Shown: one piece after another, positions 4,925 to 48,568 of the stretch
Layout: each line of letters begins with the position of its first letter
Position numbering within the stretch: position 1 is the stretch's first letter
IMG/VR virus record: IMGVR_UViG_3300017527_000125
Span: 1 to 49,254 of that record
DNA: 49,254 bases
Origin: a virus
Reading direction: 5' to 3' (one strand)
Translations under genes and position numbers: made by a program
Notes under the pieces: generated by a model
Told to the model about the DNA's origin: nothing
Seen by the model: only the letters and a program-made list of their open reading frames with translations
Databases searched by the model: none

Positions 4925-5380
4925 ATGGGTAGAAAGAAACAATACGATGACGGTCTTACGCCATATCAGAGATGGTATGCCAGGAACAAAAAGGCACATA
5001 ACAAAAAGCGTAGGGATAAGTATCAGGAAGATACTGACTATCGTGAAAAGAAGATTCAGGAGGCCAGGGACTACCGTAGTAGTGTTCGTATGCCAGAACA
5101 CCATCTACAGATACAGACGGAAGAGGGTGTTCGGTTTGTTTATCAGATACAGGTGGCGGCTGATTGGGCTGAATGTACGGTAGAGGAATTAGACTACTGG
5201 AGGAAGAAAGGGTTGTTGGGGGCTCCTCTGTATTACGGTAAGGAAAAGGTGTATTTGAAGAGGCATATGCTGGTCATACATAGACTGGTTGCTTTGTTAA
5301 GTCAGGGGTCTATGGATAAAGAATCTAGGACTAAATGGAAGTCTTACCTTTCAGAGGTGTGGGATGCCCGTGCCAGATAA
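4925..5380 (+). CDS. Putative DNA-binding protein, MerR-like helix-turn-helix
   Basis: A 151-residue protein with a highly basic N-terminus (residues 1-50, many Lys and Arg). It then has a segment (YQIQVAADWAECTVEELDYW followed by RKKGLLG) that resembles the winged helix of MerR/excisionase-type regulators, where an Ala-rich helix, a turn and a W-x-x-x-G-L-L end are usual. Likely a phage regulator or a loader with DNA affinity. It follows the helicase by 9 bases with a TAGGAG site and overlaps the next start. The fold is inferred by pattern only. Confidence 0.65.
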   Translation: MGRKKQYDDGLTPYQRWYARNKKAHNKKRRDKYQEDTDYREKKIQEARDYRSSVRMPEHHLQIQTEEGVRFVYQIQVAADWAECTVEELDYWRKKGLLGAPLYYGKEKVYLKRHMLVIHRLVALLSQGSMDKESRTKWKSYLSEVWDARAR

Positions 5381-13181: not shown

Positions 13182-13377
13182 GGTTTCTAAACACGTTGAT
13201 GGGCAGTTATGTATACAGATGAAGTCCACATACCCAGATGATTGCTTCAAGATGGGGAGGGTATATGCAGACATTATCACTCTTGGTGGCGGCGAGATAT
13301 CGGATATTGTTCAGGGTGATTGGGGACAGGGTAAGTTCATACGCATACCGCTTGCTGGTAAAGCCAAAGAAGATTAA
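13165..13377 (+). CDS. Small hypothetical protein (70 aa)
   Basis: Begins at ATG 13165 inside the preceding gene, with AAGGAG about 8 bases upstream. The 70-residue product is beta-rich with a Gly-rich middle (ITLGGGEISDIVQGDWGQGK). No family is recognised. It is the last gene before the structured 187-base gap that leads into the sugar cassette. Confidence 0.6.
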   Translation: MAISFEVSKHVDGQLCIQMKSTYPDDCFKMGRVYADIITLGGGEISDIVQGDWGQGKFIRIPLAGKAKED

Positions 13378-19163: not shown

Positions 19164-19999
19164 GCACTGCGTATGATAAGACCAAGAATCATGAACGTAT
19201 CTGGTTGCCGATACACCAGTTGGAGCCTAACCCAGATAACCCGAACAAGATGAGCCCCCGGGCCTTTGACTTGTTGGTAGACAACATAGAAAGCAAGGGC
19301 ATGACTGAGGACATTGAGGTGCGGCGTATTGGTAAGGACCAGTACCGCATCATTGGTGGTCATCATAGGTGGGGAGCCTGCGAGTACTTGGGCTGGAAGG
19401 AAGTACCCTGTATTGTAAATACTGACCCAGATATGACTGACGAAGTGGAGAATTTCCAGGTAGTCAGGATGAACATGATCCATGGTAAGTTGGACCCAAC
19501 CAAGTTCATGGCTATGTATCAGAAGGTGTCAGAAAAGTACTCTGATGAGATACTGGCTGAGTCCTTTGGTTTTGCTGACGAAGCGGAGTTTGCTAAGTTG
19601 ATCAAGCAGACAGCCAACACGCTTCCCCCAGAGTTGAAGTCAAAGTTTAAGGAGGCAGCTGCGGAGATAAAGACAGTAGAAGATTTAGCCACAGTGCTGA
19701 ATGAATTGTTGTTCACGTATGGAAACACTGTAGCCTATGGATACATGATCTTTGATTTCAACGGTAAGGAGTCTGTGTGGGTCAGGATGAACCCCAAGGA
19801 TAAGGTTGCTGCTATGAAAGTAGGAGACCTGTGTAGGGCTAACTCCAGGATGATGGACTCAGTAGTGTCTGCTCTGTTTCAGCTAACCCAGGAGGAGGGT
19901 GATTTGGGGGATTCAGTACGAGCCCATTTGTTAGATGTAACCCACCCAGAAGAAATTGATTTGTCTGCTACATGGCCGACACAGGATCAGTTGAATTGA
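19160..19999 (+). CDS. ParB-like N-terminal-domain protein
   Basis: A 279-residue protein. Residues 14-85 form a ParB/sulfiredoxin-type domain: IHQLEPNPDNPNKM, then an x-GMTEDIEVR strand, and IIGGHHRWGACEYLG (GGHHR, 66-70), the conserved phosphate-binding box. In ParB proteins this box binds CTP; in relatives it serves as ATPase, kinase or nuclease. There is no clear ParB helix-turn-helix after it; the rest is helical. It lies between the glycosyltransferase and terminase genes with overlapping ends, so a role in packaging-site recognition or DNA marking is conceivable but unproven. Confidence 0.82.
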   Translation: MSTAYDKTKNHERIWLPIHQLEPNPDNPNKMSPRAFDLLVDNIESKGMTEDIEVRRIGKDQYRIIGGHHRWGACEYLGWKEVPCIVNTDPDMTDEVENFQVVRMNMIHGKLDPTKFMAMYQKVSEKYSDEILAESFGFADEAEFAKLIKQTANTLPPELKSKFKEAAAEIKTVEDLATVLNELLFTYGNTVAYGYMIFDFNGKESVWVRMNPKDKVAAMKVGDLCRANSRMMDSVVSALFQLTQEEGDLGDSVRAHLLDVTHPEEIDLSATWPTQDQLN

Positions 20000-20697
20000 A
20001 AGTAACGAAGGCCAATAAGTATGCTCCTATACGTAGCATGGGGGCAGATAAAGTAGACCGCATGGAGGTGATGCTGGTGCAAGGTATGTCTTGCCCCAAG
20101 GTAGCTAAGAAGATTCAAGACGAATGGAAACTACTGCAGGACATAAAGACAGGCACGTTGACCAAACAGATACTACGCTATAAGAAAGAAGTGCTGGATT
20201 CTAAGCTACATAGCAAGTTATTGATCAAGACAACGGAGGACAATAAAGATACGAAGGGTACAGATGTAAAGCAGTACAAGACTGTAATCAAAACGACCAC
20301 CAAGCTTGATGTGATAGACGCACTGGAGGATTTGATACTGCTGCAGAACCATAGGGTAGCTAAGGTGTTCACCATGGAGGAGAGTTTGCCTACGTTGATG
20401 GGCACTCTACGCTATGAATTGAAAGAGCTGCGAGACATGATAAAGCAGTTATCAGACTTAAAATTTGACTTAGGACTGGTAAAAAGACAACCTAAGAAGA
20501 TTGTTGGATCTATAGACTTGCATTCACCAGAAGTTTTAGAGGATGAAGATGTACTTTCCAAGATGCTCGCAGATAAGGGGGCCATGGATGATGCAACCAC
20601 GGAAGTGTTTGCAGCCTTAGAAGCTATGGTGAAAGAAGCCGGGGAGATTGAGGATGGAGAGTTTACTGACTGCGTACCCACTGACGGGGACAGTTGA
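19972..20697 (+). CDS. Probable terminase small subunit
   Basis: A 241-residue protein immediately upstream of, and overlapping, the large terminase gene. Residues about 28-50 (RMEVMLVQGMSCPKVAKKIQ) fit a helix-turn-helix, the usual DNA-recognition element of small terminases. A central helical region with regular Leu spacing (LEDLILLQNHRVAKVF onward) could give the oligomerisation coiled coil, and the C-terminus is acidic. The assignment rests mainly on position and architecture; a transcriptional regulator is the alternative. Confidence 0.65.
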   Translation: MADTGSVELKVTKANKYAPIRSMGADKVDRMEVMLVQGMSCPKVAKKIQDEWKLLQDIKTGTLTKQILRYKKEVLDSKLHSKLLIKTTEDNKDTKGTDVKQYKTVIKTTTKLDVIDALEDLILLQNHRVAKVFTMEESLPTLMGTLRYELKELRDMIKQLSDLKFDLGLVKRQPKKIVGSIDLHSPEVLEDEDVLSKMLADKGAMDDATTEVFAALEAMVKEAGEIEDGEFTDCVPTDGDS

Positions 20698-36265: not shown

Positions 36266-36281
36266 GGGTAAGACGGTACAC

Positions 36282-36314
36282 TACGGGAGTCCCTAAGTAT
36301 GGAACCTCCGTATG
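36282..36314 (+). promoter_or_regulatory. Leader hairpin with GGA in the loop at a start codon
   Basis: ACGG(G)AG pairs with CTCCGT, which runs into the ATG at 36312. The loop holds CTAAGTATGGAAC. It shares TAAGTATnGGAnCCTCC with the leader at 24588. It precedes the two-gene unit that encodes the CsrA-like protein. Confidence 0.5.
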
Positions 36315-36725
36315 ACAATAAAGACAAGGCATAGGTGCCCCAAGTGTACAGGGGCGGCATGGTTGGAAATAGAAGACAGAGAGGTGGTGATTCGATGCCT
36401 CTGTGGGTTTCTAAAGATAGTGGAAGAAATTCGGGACGGTATGGTAATCACCCGGACTGAACATCCCACACTCCATTCCCTGCCAAGGACCGGAACAAAG
36501 CTCTCAAAGTGCCTTGGAGCCCTGTATGTTTACTCTCCTCAAAGCACTGGAGAGTTGGCTGTAAAACTAGACCAGACGAACAATGAAACAGCAGTTCAGT
36601 TGACCGTACTGCAGACCAAAGGATTGGCAGTTAAGGTGACGCAGGGGAAAGGAATCCCCGGTGGTAGTGTTTGGGATATGAGTAGCATTGGTAATCGTCT
36701 ATTGGATGGAGGAAGAAATGAGTAA
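36312..36725 (+). CDS. Zinc-ribbon plus winged-helix-like protein (137 aa)
   Basis: A 137-residue protein. The N-terminus has CPKCTGAAWLEIEDREVVIR ending in CLCG, a zinc ribbon. The C-terminal half looks like a winged helix: STGELAVKLDQTNNETAVQL, then LQTKGLAVKVTQGKGIPGGS and a final W strand. It is probably a DNA- or RNA-binding regulator. It precedes, and overlaps by 8 bases, the CsrA-like gene; its leader may fold over the start codon. Confidence 0.65.
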   Translation: MTIKTRHRCPKCTGAAWLEIEDREVVIRCLCGFLKIVEEIRDGMVITRTEHPTLHSLPRTGTKLSKCLGALYVYSPQSTGELAVKLDQTNNETAVQLTVLQTKGLAVKVTQGKGIPGGSVWDMSSIGNRLLDGGRNE

Positions 36726-45670: not shown

Positions 45671-46981
45671 ATGGCTAAGCCAGAGCTGCTGCTATCTCTG
45701 GAGGGAGCCCTTAACGACAAGCTTGAGGGTAAGTGGGACAAGGTCGCTCGTAGATTGGCTACGCGGCTGGTAAAAGCCCTGGAAGAAGACGATCTGGCTA
45801 AGGTAGATAAGCTGATCAATGAGGCTAGGACAGCCAATCTGCATAAGGGGGAGCACAAGTACATCCGGTATATAGGCCTGTCTTCCATGCTGTTCGGGGC
45901 CTCCTTAGTATCCGGTACTGCCAAGAAGTCCTCTATTGCCAAGGCTAAGAAGCCGCCACAGATTCTAGTTCCAGCTGTTAAGCAGATGAAAGTTATGCTG
46001 GAAGAGGGGGACAAGACCCTTAGAAAAGAACTGGGGAGGATGGTCCAGAAAGCTATCGAAGTGCGGGACTCTAATCAGGTACAGAAAGCTGCCAAGGTTA
46101 GAACCATGGAAGAGATAGTCAAGATGGGTACAGGTAGGGTAGGTAAAGGCATTATCAACATAGCTGCAAGCCTGCATACTTCCAGATTGTCAGCTTATGG
46201 GTTCTGTGTAGAAGCGCAGGTTACCGGCATTACCCGCTACGGTATTAATGAGCAGTTGGACAACCGTATTTGTCCTGTATGTCGTGAGATGCACGGTAAG
46301 ACATTTGAGGTTCAGCAGGCGTATACCCGCCTGGATAGTCTGTTACGGGTAGAGAACACAGAGGATTTAAAGCAGCTGGCCCCTTGGCCCAAGCAGGATA
46401 AGAACAGCCTGGAAAGGTTCAAGCGCATGAATGAAAGTGATCTTGTATCCGCAGGTTGGAGTATTCCGCCATTTCATCCTGGGTGTCGTGGGTTATTGTC
46501 CAAGACTATGGATGTCCCAGCATTGCCTGCTGCAGCTGCAGATGTGCCTGTATCTACGGATATAGCTGGCGTAGACCTTGGTACCCCAACAGGAATCGTA
46601 TCCTCCGGGGTTATAGATTTAGCTGTAGAGGGCGCGACCAAGACCTTTAGTATGCCTAAGAGGGCGATAACTTCTGGTGACAAGCTGGTACTGGTGGATA
46701 CTTTAGAGCTGGATAAGATCTGGAAGAAGGACAAGGATTATTACATTGGTGTGGGCGGAGAAGGGGGCATCAGTGGTAGGTACGCAAGGTTTGAGAAGTA
46801 CCTGGATGAGCATGACGATATCCTGGTTTCAGAACTTGGGATCAATGAATATGGCATGTCGTTTACCAATGGAAGACATAGAGCCGCTGTCCTGAGAGAC
46901 AAGGGGATGATATACCTGCCGGTAGCTATGGATGATGAAAGTATCCAGTGGGCCAAGAGTCTGAAACTAATTGAAGATTAA
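45671..46981 (+). CDS. MuF-type minor head protein with C-terminal ParB/Srx-like domain
   Basis: A 436-residue protein. The middle is the MuF head-morphogenesis domain: LDNRICPVCREMHGKTF (Cys201, Cys204, His208) and IPPFHPGCRG (His269, Cys272), which form its metal site. After a Pro/Ala/Val linker (281-330) comes a second domain: KLVLVDTLELDKIW, GRYARFEKYLDEH, and FTNGRHRAAVLRDKGM (398-413), resembling the ParB/sulfiredoxin fold GRHR box. MuF proteins with C-terminal effector domains are known as phage-borne polymorphic toxins delivered with DNA; that role here is inferred. Portal is upstream; the large noncoding RNA is downstream. Confidence 0.85.
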   Translation: MAKPELLLSLEGALNDKLEGKWDKVARRLATRLVKALEEDDLAKVDKLINEARTANLHKGEHKYIRYIGLSSMLFGASLVSGTAKKSSIAKAKKPPQILVPAVKQMKVMLEEGDKTLRKELGRMVQKAIEVRDSNQVQKAAKVRTMEEIVKMGTGRVGKGIINIAASLHTSRLSAYGFCVEAQVTGITRYGINEQLDNRICPVCREMHGKTFEVQQAYTRLDSLLRVENTEDLKQLAPWPKQDKNSLERFKRMNESDLVSAGWSIPPFHPGCRGLLSKTMDVPALPAAAADVPVSTDIAGVDLGTPTGIVSSGVIDLAVEGATKTFSMPKRAITSGDKLVLVDTLELDKIWKKDKDYYIGVGGEGGISGRYARFEKYLDEHDDILVSELGINEYGMSFTNGRHRAAVLRDKGMIYLPVAMDDESIQWAKSLKLIED

Positions 46982-46993
46982 TGAAATAAACCT

Positions 46994-47021
46994 TTGACAT
47001 ACGTTACTCCCCCAGTATAAT
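46994..47021 (+). promoter_or_regulatory. Strong sigma70 promoter P15 for the large RNA
   Basis: TTGACA, 16-nt spacer, TATAAT: both boxes are perfect consensus. Its core reads TTGACATACG, a variant of the TTGACAAACG family. The transcript should start near 47028. Confidence 0.88.
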
Positions 47022-47424
47022 ACGTCCCATCGCTTAGGAACATATTGTCAGGTAACTGGCAGAAAGGGGTGAAGGCAACGCAGCCCCGGGTGTTTCGACA
47101 TCCTATCCAAGCAAGCCGAGGTGGTGGGGCAAGCCCCATAATTCGATGCACTATCGGAGATATCTGACGAGTAATTAGGCAGAAGTAGCCCATAATAACC
47201 AAAGGGGCCGCTGTGAAGTGATCTGCTAAAAGCAAGTCGGGGACACCAAAGGGTAGTCATATAGTCTGAGTCGGTAGATAAGGGCATATGGTAGTTGAGG
47301 CGAACAGGGCGAAGGTTCAATGTTCGTTGAAAACAGACAATTAGCAGACATGTGAAAGTCATTAGGTGTGTGGTATTTTGGCCCCGAAAGGGATTGAAGC
47401 CACTGACAGACCCACATCTTGGTT

Positions 47425-47498
47425 GTATTATGTAGCTCATCTGGTAGAGCTACGGCCTTTGAAGCCGTTGGTAACTGGTTCGATCCCAGTCGTAAACA
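47425..47498 (+). tRNA. tRNA-Gln(UUG) embedded in the large RNA
   Basis: A full cloverleaf: D stem GCTC/GAGC, anticodon stem ACGGC/GCCGT with loop CTTTGAA (anticodon TTG), five-base variable loop, T stem ACTGG/CCAGT with TTCGATC loop. The acceptor stem pairs GTATTATG with CGTAAAC if A47427 is bulged. CCA is not encoded. It would have to be cut from the flanking 12-bp helix to act as a tRNA; the bulge raises the possibility that it is purely structural. Confidence 0.8.
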
Positions 47499-47822
47499 AG
47501 TGAAAGAGGTCTGTCGGTGTTGGATTAAAGTGGCTTAATGCTGTACCACCTCGGTGGAATACAGTGCCATGACACCTCACAAGGTAGATTGGTTTGGCTA
47601 GAGGTAGCACTTTGGGAGCGGCCACTCTCGGGGGTATACTGAAAGTTGAGTGATTCAACAGTATGAAGGTACCGCCACCTTCTAAAAAAAGGCAGTCATG
47701 CTAGGTACACCTCTGCACTTCGGTGGGGGGTGTGGATAACTGAAGAACTCCAGGTTGGTAGCCTGTAGGTAATGTCAGTAAAGTTTAGTACGAGAGGTTG
47801 TAGTCTCAGACCGATCAAATCG

Positions 47823-47857
47823 AAACCCTGATCTCACAAGGATCGGGGTTTTATTTT
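47823..47857 (+). terminator. Rho-independent terminator of the large RNA
   Basis: AACCCTGATC and GATCGGGGTT (10 bp, one G-T pair) around a 7-nt loop, followed by TTATTTT. Confidence 0.88.
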
Positions 47858-47992: not shown

Positions 47993-48568
47993 ATGCGGGT
48001 ACTTAAATACGATGACGAGAAACAGATTGTCTACGGGGAAGTTTATGCCCCGGGGGTACCCGATGCCCATGGAGATTTCATGACTGAAGACTCCATCCTG
48101 GATATGGCCCATAATTTTCTAGCCAATAACCGTGTTGAGAAGATTGATAGAAATCACGATCATAATCAGATCGATGCCGTTGTTGTGGAATCGTTTATTG
48201 CAAGACCGGGAGATCCTGACTTCATTGTTGGAAGTTGGGTAGCTGCGGTTAAAGTACACGATCCTGAAACTTGGGGGCAGATCAAAAAGGGGGACCTGAA
48301 TGGGTTCTCTTTGGATGGTGCAGCTAAAGGTTCAATAACGGAACTAGAGGTTGAAATCCCTGACTTTGTGGAAGGACGCACTACCAAAGCAGAAGATGAC
48401 CATGACCACACTTTTAAAGTCGCATTTGATGACGAAGGTAATTTTGTGGGTGGTGAGACTGACGAGGTGGCCGGACATATCCATGCCATAGTTAAGGGCA
48501 CTGTAACCGAAGAAGCGGGTGGGCACAACCATAGATTCTCATACATAGAGGCACTGATTGATGGCTAG
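47993..48568 (+). CDS. Prohead protease, XkdF-type
   Basis: A 191-residue protein matching the XkdF-type putative phage serine protease: IVYGEVYAPGVPDAHGDFMT (12-31), KIDRNHDHN with His55, VVESFIARPGDPDFIVGSWV (64-83), and LNGFSLDGA (Ser106) at the end of the conserved core. It should cut scaffold and head proteins during maturation. The C-terminal 70 residues include His-rich DDHDHTF and GGHNHRF segments. No good ribosome site lies close to the ATG; AGAGG at 47972-47976 is 16 bases away. Overlaps the next gene by 8 bases. Confidence 0.85.
   Translation: MRVLKYDDEKQIVYGEVYAPGVPDAHGDFMTEDSILDMAHNFLANNRVEKIDRNHDHNQIDAVVVESFIARPGDPDFIVGSWVAAVKVHDPETWGQIKKGDLNGFSLDGAAKGSITELEVEIPDFVEGRTTKAEDDHDHTFKVAFDDEGNFVGGETDEVAGHIHAIVKGTVTEEAGGHNHRFSYIEALIDG

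Follow-up and report, generated by a model that had tools for sequence, protein, structure and literature searches.

A divergent phage GOLLD RNA whose linker carries a tRNA-like domain, probably a built-in mimic

The closest described relatives of the RNA considered here belong to GOLLD, a family of large phage-borne non-coding RNAs. According to Kretsch et al. 2025 (PMC12286853), the GOLLD RNA env-38 has a disordered linker that lies inside a 14-mer RNA cage, transfer RNAs (tRNAs) are sometimes present in the GOLLD linker, ribosomes bind GOLLD in pull-downs from work cited there, and the function of GOLLD is described as unknown; ROOL appears in the same text as another large, cage-forming phage RNA. 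The subject of this report is an RNA of about 830 nucleotides encoded on the plus strand (47028-47857) of a virus record of 49,254 nucleotides, IMGVR_UViG_3300017527_000125, the whole of which is called the window below. Its linker holds a domain resembling tRNA-Gln, and the best overall explanation, held here as probable, is that of a GOLLD RNA with a built-in tRNA mimic that is not released.

Much of the window RNA recalls env-38 and other GOLLDs. It is phage-borne, measures about 800 nucleotides, matches the whole model of the 3' domain, combines that conserved domain with a variable 5' domain, and has its linker at the corresponding place. It departs from them in scoring below the family threshold and in bearing a tRNA-like domain, not a disordered loop, in the linker. 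Proximity to a tRNA island is usual for GOLLD but does not define it; no such island was found near the window RNA, which lies between head genes. The cage is known for env-38 (PMC12286853) and would extend to the window RNA by analogy.

A tRNA-like sequence inside a GOLLD is not without precedent. PMC6582537 describes a mycobacterial GOLLD with a pseudo-tRNA for which no expression of its own was detected. That is one case within a cluster of 32 tRNAs, whereas the domains described here form a class with a conserved closing helix, a kept cloverleaf and a changing anticodon; the two are set apart by description, not by sequence. In Caulobacter phages of the phiCbK group, an annotated tRNA-Gly or tRNA-Lys gene (e.g. 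D865_gt024) sits in the GOLLD linker; in six records these GOLLDs score 165-171 bits, above the cut-off, and 112-118 bits with R1, the covariance model of the linker domain described below. The GOLLD family and the occurrence of a tRNA in its linker are already known, and it is the class properties of the insert that appear undescribed: neither acceptor-end loss nor changing anticodons were found described for GOLLD in the literature searched, which offers partial coverage.

The tRNA-like domain in the linker of a divergent GOLLD RNA

The initial annotation had proposed a divergent relative of GOLLD or ROOL, or a new class of RNA, and had suggested comparison with the Rfam models. The GOLLD covariance model, RF02032, matches over its entire length (positions 1-416 of 416) to 47363-47812 with 127.7 bits and an E value of 4.1e-35, and the same score is found in G000 and in a 92-kb sister contig. 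This is under the Rfam gathering score of 150 bits, which is a score line set by curators and not a biological feature. At the curated cut-offs Rfam reports a tRNA alone in the window RNA, and GOLLD emerges once the cut-off is lifted. Whole-RNA comparisons with nhmmer align positions 46-784 of the 830 with locus L138 (E 3e-26) and positions 23-785 with locus L172 (E 8e-26), and G067, the record of L138, passes the GOLLD cut-off with 164.7 bits. The 5' domain (47028-47362), which corresponds to the variable half of GOLLD, lies outside the stretch matched by Rfam and within both of these alignments; queried alone it gives weak matches (blastn E 0.01; nhmmer E 0.3-0.5). With a conserved 3' domain (47363-47812) and a variable 5' domain in 830 nucleotides between promoter and terminator, the RNA has the layout of a GOLLD, and by homology it is almost certainly a divergent member of the family, filed as such although it misses the score line.

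The other identities that had been considered fell away. Rfam 15 includes a ROOL family, and ROOL was dismissed since no match to it is listed for the window RNA at E values up to 10. A new class was likewise dismissed in view of the GOLLD match, and linker tRNAs are already mentioned in PMC12286853. Searched with blastn in named phages, the RNA has no place covering 80% of its length, the 20 matches listed of 309 falling on the tRNA, and bacterial genomes gave no match in a single scan for an exact pattern. A close relative by nhmmer (E 1e-26), located at 640-1460 of L100, has a plain hairpin as its linker and no tRNA.

The linker of the window RNA is closed by a helix of 12 base pairs (47401-47412 with 47508-47519, plus strand), which pairs exactly and, as originally described, is separate from the acceptor stem of the domain within. 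This tRNA-like domain (47426-47498, plus strand) had been taken for a complete tRNA-Gln, a description that does not hold. A tRNA-Gln(TTG) is predicted at 47427-47497, with the anticodon UUG at 47459-47461, and the Rfam tRNA model gives 50.6 bits against a cut-off of 29, but the acceptor stem keeps only five of its seven pairs, 3 to 7. In standard numbering, pairs 1-72 (U-C) and 2-71 (A-A) are broken, ARAGORN likewise pairs five acceptor positions, position 73 is an A and no CCA is encoded. In the lowest-energy fold, a single-sequence prediction, UUGU at 47423-47426 extends the acceptor by pairing with ACAA at 47496-47499 and A47427 is bulged, such that UUGU-(A)-UUAUG runs against CGUAA-ACAA and leaves no free 3' end. 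In 28 of 38 relatives a UUCGC/GCGAA helix occupies about the same place outside the acceptor, where the window has UUGU/ACAA instead; L124 bears the variant UUUGCA/UGCAAA, as read by eye. The 92-kb sister contig, which is possibly incomplete, contains no tRNA match beyond the embedded domain. There is thus no tRNA island to account for the domain, and tRNA supply is an unlikely purpose for it in the window phage.

That the tRNA forms a module within the larger RNA, as first proposed, is borne out by covariation, a check that the initial annotation had also suggested. The alignment comprises 36 sequences, the window and 35 others, the latter retained from 39 distinct ones after removal of L150 and near-identical rows. 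In the closing helix (helix 3), 8 of 10 aligned pairs are altered on both sides, as are all 4 pairs of the D stem, 4 of 5 in the anticodon stem and 3 of 5 in the T stem. Across 41 named pairs, 97.4% of the cells are paired, compared to 79.7% in shuffles and 37-45% in slid controls, and 32 of the 41 have changed on both sides, compared to 17.4 in shuffles. Without guidance, RNAalifold recovers the closing helix and the three arms. The model R1 was built from the 35 other sequences, leaving the window out, and was run on 121 loci; it scores the window at 71.5 bits (E 3e-14), and its best match outside GOLLD linkers reaches 52.2 bits. With a conserved helix closing the linker and both the elbow and the arms of the tRNA retained, comparative analysis identifies the 12-base-pair helix as a conserved helix of these RNAs and the tRNA-like domain as an integral part of them.

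Acceptor end and anticodon loop of the embedded domains

A search of viral contigs for a T loop and then for GOLLD motifs returned 51 loci. It needs a canonical T loop, so that eroded domains are under-counted and the window itself, with a C at position 60, is unmatched. Fifty of these tRNA-linker loci (all except L172) were searched with Rfam; 49 pass the GOLLD cut-off, the lowest with 150.8 bits, and the remaining one, on a truncated contig, scores 142.4. The 3' motifs of GOLLD alone retrieve at least 118 loci, and all 50 of those searched with Rfam pass. Among named isolates, 24 records hold a similar RNA. All 11 that were searched pass the cut-off, and R1 gives at least 91 bits in 10 of them, DSS3P8 reaching 32 only.

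Cloverleaves were parsed from the T loop and judged by their D and anticodon stems, the acceptor stem playing no part in the selection; free tRNAs from the same contigs served as controls and were additionally judged by T stem and D loop. Fifty of the 51 loci could be parsed (L150 is truncated), yielding 38 distinct embedded domains for comparison with 271 distinct free tRNAs. All seven acceptor pairs are formed in 2 of 38 embedded domains, compared to 184 of 271 free tRNAs (p 4e-14). The loss falls on pair 2-71 (7/38 against 236/271, p 8e-18), pair 1-72 (19/38 against 219/271, p 1e-4) and pair 3-70 (27/38 against 238/271, p 0.01), and there is none in pairs 4-7, which are all intact in 34/38 and 211/271, respectively (p 0.13). 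It is thus concentrated where the acceptor stem ends on its outer side, the site of processing and charging. Other features of working tRNAs follow suit: CCA is encoded in 2 embedded domains and 168 free tRNAs, G1 is found in 2 and 161, and the anticodon loop is canonical in 23 and 231. Six embedded domains have an anticodon loop of 8 or 9 nucleotides. Bacterial tRNAs for leucine and serine have a long variable arm, and seven embedded domains combine a Leu or Ser anticodon with a short variable loop of 4-5 nucleotides. Jointly, all decoding criteria are satisfied by 1 of the 38, as opposed to 187 of the 271. The GG of the D loop is present in every embedded domain (38/38).

The anticodon, on the other hand, changes rapidly. 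Between linkers that differ by 12% or less elsewhere (26 pairs drawn from 18 sequences), the anticodon triplet differs at a rate of 0.44 per site, compared to 0.08, and U33 is unchanged. A tree of 43 of 60 domains, from which duplicates and loops of other than 7 nucleotides were dropped, assigns 43 steps to positions 34-36, making them the fastest triplet; none of 388 other blocks of three columns is as fast. Treated as a label, the anticodon undergoes at least 24 changes over the 43 tips, among which 14 anticodons occur, and shuffled labels require 26.5 on average and 22 at minimum. The anticodon is therefore nearly independent of the RNA tree. Some anticodons recur, with at least 9 changes for CUU and at least 6 for UCU.

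Caulobacter phages offer a comparison at close range, for which 14 of 18 records were used, representing 7 haplotypes outside the loop. Their loops differ from that of the window RNA: CGUCCUA is present in 8 records and CAUCCUA in 1, both annotated as tRNA-Gly, and CUCUUAA in 5, annotated as tRNA-Lys. Between phiCbK and Magneto, 5 contiguous bases of the 7 in the loop differ, compared to only 4 of the 933 sites elsewhere (p 4e-10), a difference that may reflect one event.

Gene borders, neighbours and variant linkers

The window RNA is bracketed by transcription signals, and its assignment as a GOLLD-type non-coding RNA draws on these, on its fold and on the model match. A predicted sigma-70-type promoter, TTGACA-N16-TATAAT (46994-47021, plus strand), had been called near-perfect and is in fact perfect, agreeing with the consensus at 12 of 12 positions; it is the sole such match in the window on both strands when spacings of 15-19 nucleotides are allowed. 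Transcription is expected to start near 47028. The intrinsic terminator (47822-47852, plus strand) is likewise as described, a stem of 13 pairs followed by the T-rich tail ATTTT. So is the stable structure of the 830 nucleotides, whose sense strand folds at -286.1 kcal/mol (z -5.4), with 0 of 20 shuffles as good; for the opposite strand, too, none of 20 shuffles is as good, but z is weaker at -2.5. The reported lack of reading frames is correct for the sense strand, on which the RNA region has none of 60 or more amino acids, but not for the antisense strand, where four overlap the RNA (130, 85, 73 and 63 amino acids). None of the four has a PHROG match up to E 1, and the possibility that the minus strand of the region encodes a known gene was dismissed on that basis.

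The position between head genes was also confirmed. The upstream neighbour (45671-46981, plus strand) encodes a ParB-like or minor-head-like protein; its top PHROG match is of unknown function, weaker ones are minor head proteins, and relatives carry the annotation 'ParB-like nuclease domain protein'. Downstream lies a head maturation protease gene (47993-48568, plus strand) that matches phrog_15223, a protease, at E 1.5e-70 and phrog_3017 at E 9.7e-33. The link to the capsid stage that had been drawn from this position gained no support beyond gene order, and in other phages the RNA adjoins tRNA genes. DLP5, VH2_2019 and RHph_TM16, three phages that carry a homologue of the protease gene, gave no match in a GOLLD search, nor did 14 control genomes, whereas the same search matches 11 of 11 other named phages; a capsid-stage role deduced from gene order was dismissed because those three phages gave no match. 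The head proteins of the window phage resemble those of Stenotrophomonas DLP5 and of Vibrio SIO-2-type phages. A protein-based search for relatives of the window phage found a single near-identical contig. This 92-kb sister contig (L002), which differs from the window at 1 of 4,262 aligned bases, has an identical RNA.

Linkers vary among the GOLLDs collected. Among the loci listed by 3' motif, 109 are long enough to include the linker, and a T-loop motif is found there in L002, which represents the window's phage, in L032 and, in permuted form, in L079; T-loop-like matches in L049 and L119 lie far upstream of the linker and were set aside by position only. The embedded domain of L032 (6733-6849, minus strand) has the anticodon CUA and would read the UAG stop codon. 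In L079 (minus strand, GOLLD near 13247-13327), the upstream linker apparently contains a tRNA in circularly permuted form, in the order of a 3' half with CCA, a hairpin and a 5' half, the halves forming a 7-base-pair acceptor stem; this is a single case. The linker domain of L114 (2509-2626, minus strand) has a T loop of 6 nucleotides; the T-loop search missed it and R1, in which it is not included, found it with 82.4 bits. L006 (about 5070-5170, plus strand) and L022, whose linker is identical, show two arms as read by eye, one D-like and one anticodon-like (loop CUCUUAA), and lack a T arm. In Roseobacter phage DSS3P8 (L186, 781-869) the GOLLD passes with 150.7 bits but has an eroded tRNA-like domain (32 bits), in contrast to that of phage DSS3_MAL1 (L183, 784-1680), where a GOLLD with an embedded tRNA-like domain is directly followed by a gene for transfer-messenger RNA. 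Furthermore, a 59-kb virus contig (G034, the record of L035) contains two full GOLLD RNAs, at 19736-20149 and 36280-36673, and GOLLDs with a tRNA-like linker occur in contigs of jumbo-phage size, 358-382 kb (L131, L134 and L155).

Possible roles of the embedded domain

Retention of the fold, loss of the working end and continual change of the loop together suggest bait for a reader of the anticodon loop, and it is the turnover of the anticodon that points to such a partner. On this account, a divergent GOLLD with its own promoter and terminator, set between head genes, would carry the tRNA-like domain in its linker, and the broken acceptor end, which is predicted to be tied into a linker helix, would preclude release of a mature, chargeable tRNA. 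By analogy with env-38, each RNA of a cage would display its tRNA mimic to the interior, where the mimic would capture a factor that recognises tRNA. The partner reading the loop would most simply be a host nuclease that cuts tRNAs, or alternatively the ribosome. PARIS, according to PMC11455837, cuts tRNA-Lys, and PMC10264068 relates a proposal that phage tRNAs evade host anticodon nucleases through loop mutations. Changed anticodon loops are common to those tRNAs and to the class described here; the former are proposed in that same text to replace cut host tRNAs, whereas the embedded domain lacks the features for release and charging. That the domain serves as bait is a tentative suggestion, less likely than not. 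The more elaborate proposal that GOLLD cages act as traps, in which up to 14 interior mimics would capture an anticodon-reading host factor and the loop would track the factor of each host, must be regarded as speculative and unlikely in its full form.

Several explanations that involve no bait must be considered alongside. The domain could be a working phage tRNA within a GOLLD precursor, excised by RNase P and RNase Z, as its score with the Rfam tRNA model and the canonical anticodon loop of the window would suggest; moreover, in the records of isolates the embedded copies bear annotations such as tRNA-Lys, -Gly, -Leu or -Arg. This is improbable given the broken pairs 1-72 and 2-71, the missing CCA and the A73 of the window domain, and given that the joint decoding criteria single out 1 embedded domain against 187 free tRNAs, that position 33 is a G or an A in loops of the phiCbK type, and that the seven Leu or Ser anticodons come without the long arm. 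RNase P could also act on the domain as a processing signal, cutting between a 5' cap domain and a 3' ring domain. MALAT1 provides a precedent for cleavage of an RNA by RNase P at a tRNA-like domain, and both the good T arm and elbow and the placement, with the 5' domain on one side and most of the 3' domain on the other, would be in keeping with such a role. However, RNase P favours G1, pairs 1-72 and 2-71, and CCA at its cut site, the very features that are lost across the 38 embedded domains, which renders a processing signal highly improbable. It is likely that the domain is neither used for decoding nor a processing signal, a statement in which the case of a fossil is included.

Such a fossil would be a decaying tRNA insertion that drifts in a tolerant linker. 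Eroded forms do exist, including L006 and L022 without a T arm, L114 with its short T loop and the remnants in DSS3P8; most of the 109 sufficiently long GOLLDs listed by 3' motif lack a linker T loop, with L002, L032, L079 and L114 as exceptions; and a pseudo-tRNA is reported in mycobacterial GOLLD (PMC6582537). Decay is nevertheless unlikely, since drift would break the stems, and these are held by many compensatory changes together with an invariant GG in the D loop; the covariation already suggests that the fold is under selection. A passive structural spacer, in which the tRNA fold would serve as a compact plug, stiffening or filling the cage without any partner, is somewhat easier to entertain although still rather doubtful. 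It accommodates retention of the fold, loss of the working end and free variation of the loop sequence, but it leaves unexplained the contiguous 5-base loop change among phiCbK relatives, why the anticodons CUU and UCU return repeatedly, and why most GOLLDs listed by 3' motif do without the domain.

The reading of the domain as a built-in mimic has its own difficulties. Single-sequence folds of the linker barely beat shuffles (z -0.6 to -1.4), and the UUCGC/GCGAA helix reaches p<=0.05 in 1 of 38 relatives taken singly, no better than chance. Some embedded domains are near intact, with all seven acceptor pairs in L172 and L137 and an encoded CCA in L130 and L172. The anticodon loop of the window, CUUUGAA, is canonical and is present in 2 of 221 free phage tRNAs, and 16 of 38 embedded domains share their loop with some free tRNA. 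On the tree, the anticodon stem, at 41 and 40 steps, comes close to the 43 of the triplet, indicating turnover of the arm as a whole. U33 shows no more than average conservation (4 steps, against a column mean of 5.3) and is missing in phiCbK and BL57, and the number of anticodon changes may be inflated by recombination. Nor does the loop change everywhere, as phiCbK and the more distant BL57 differ in 1 loop base and at 41 other sites (p 0.27).

Taken together, the kept tRNA fold, the lost end for release and charging and the changing anticodon imply that something outside the RNA may read the loop. Laboratory phages, phiCbK among them, carry the domain under the annotation of an ordinary tRNA gene, and some of the phage 'tRNA genes' entered in codon-usage counts may not be tRNAs. 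If the trap reading were true, these RNAs would represent a phage counter-defence made of RNA only, with interchangeable bait, and this would be the first function for GOLLD.
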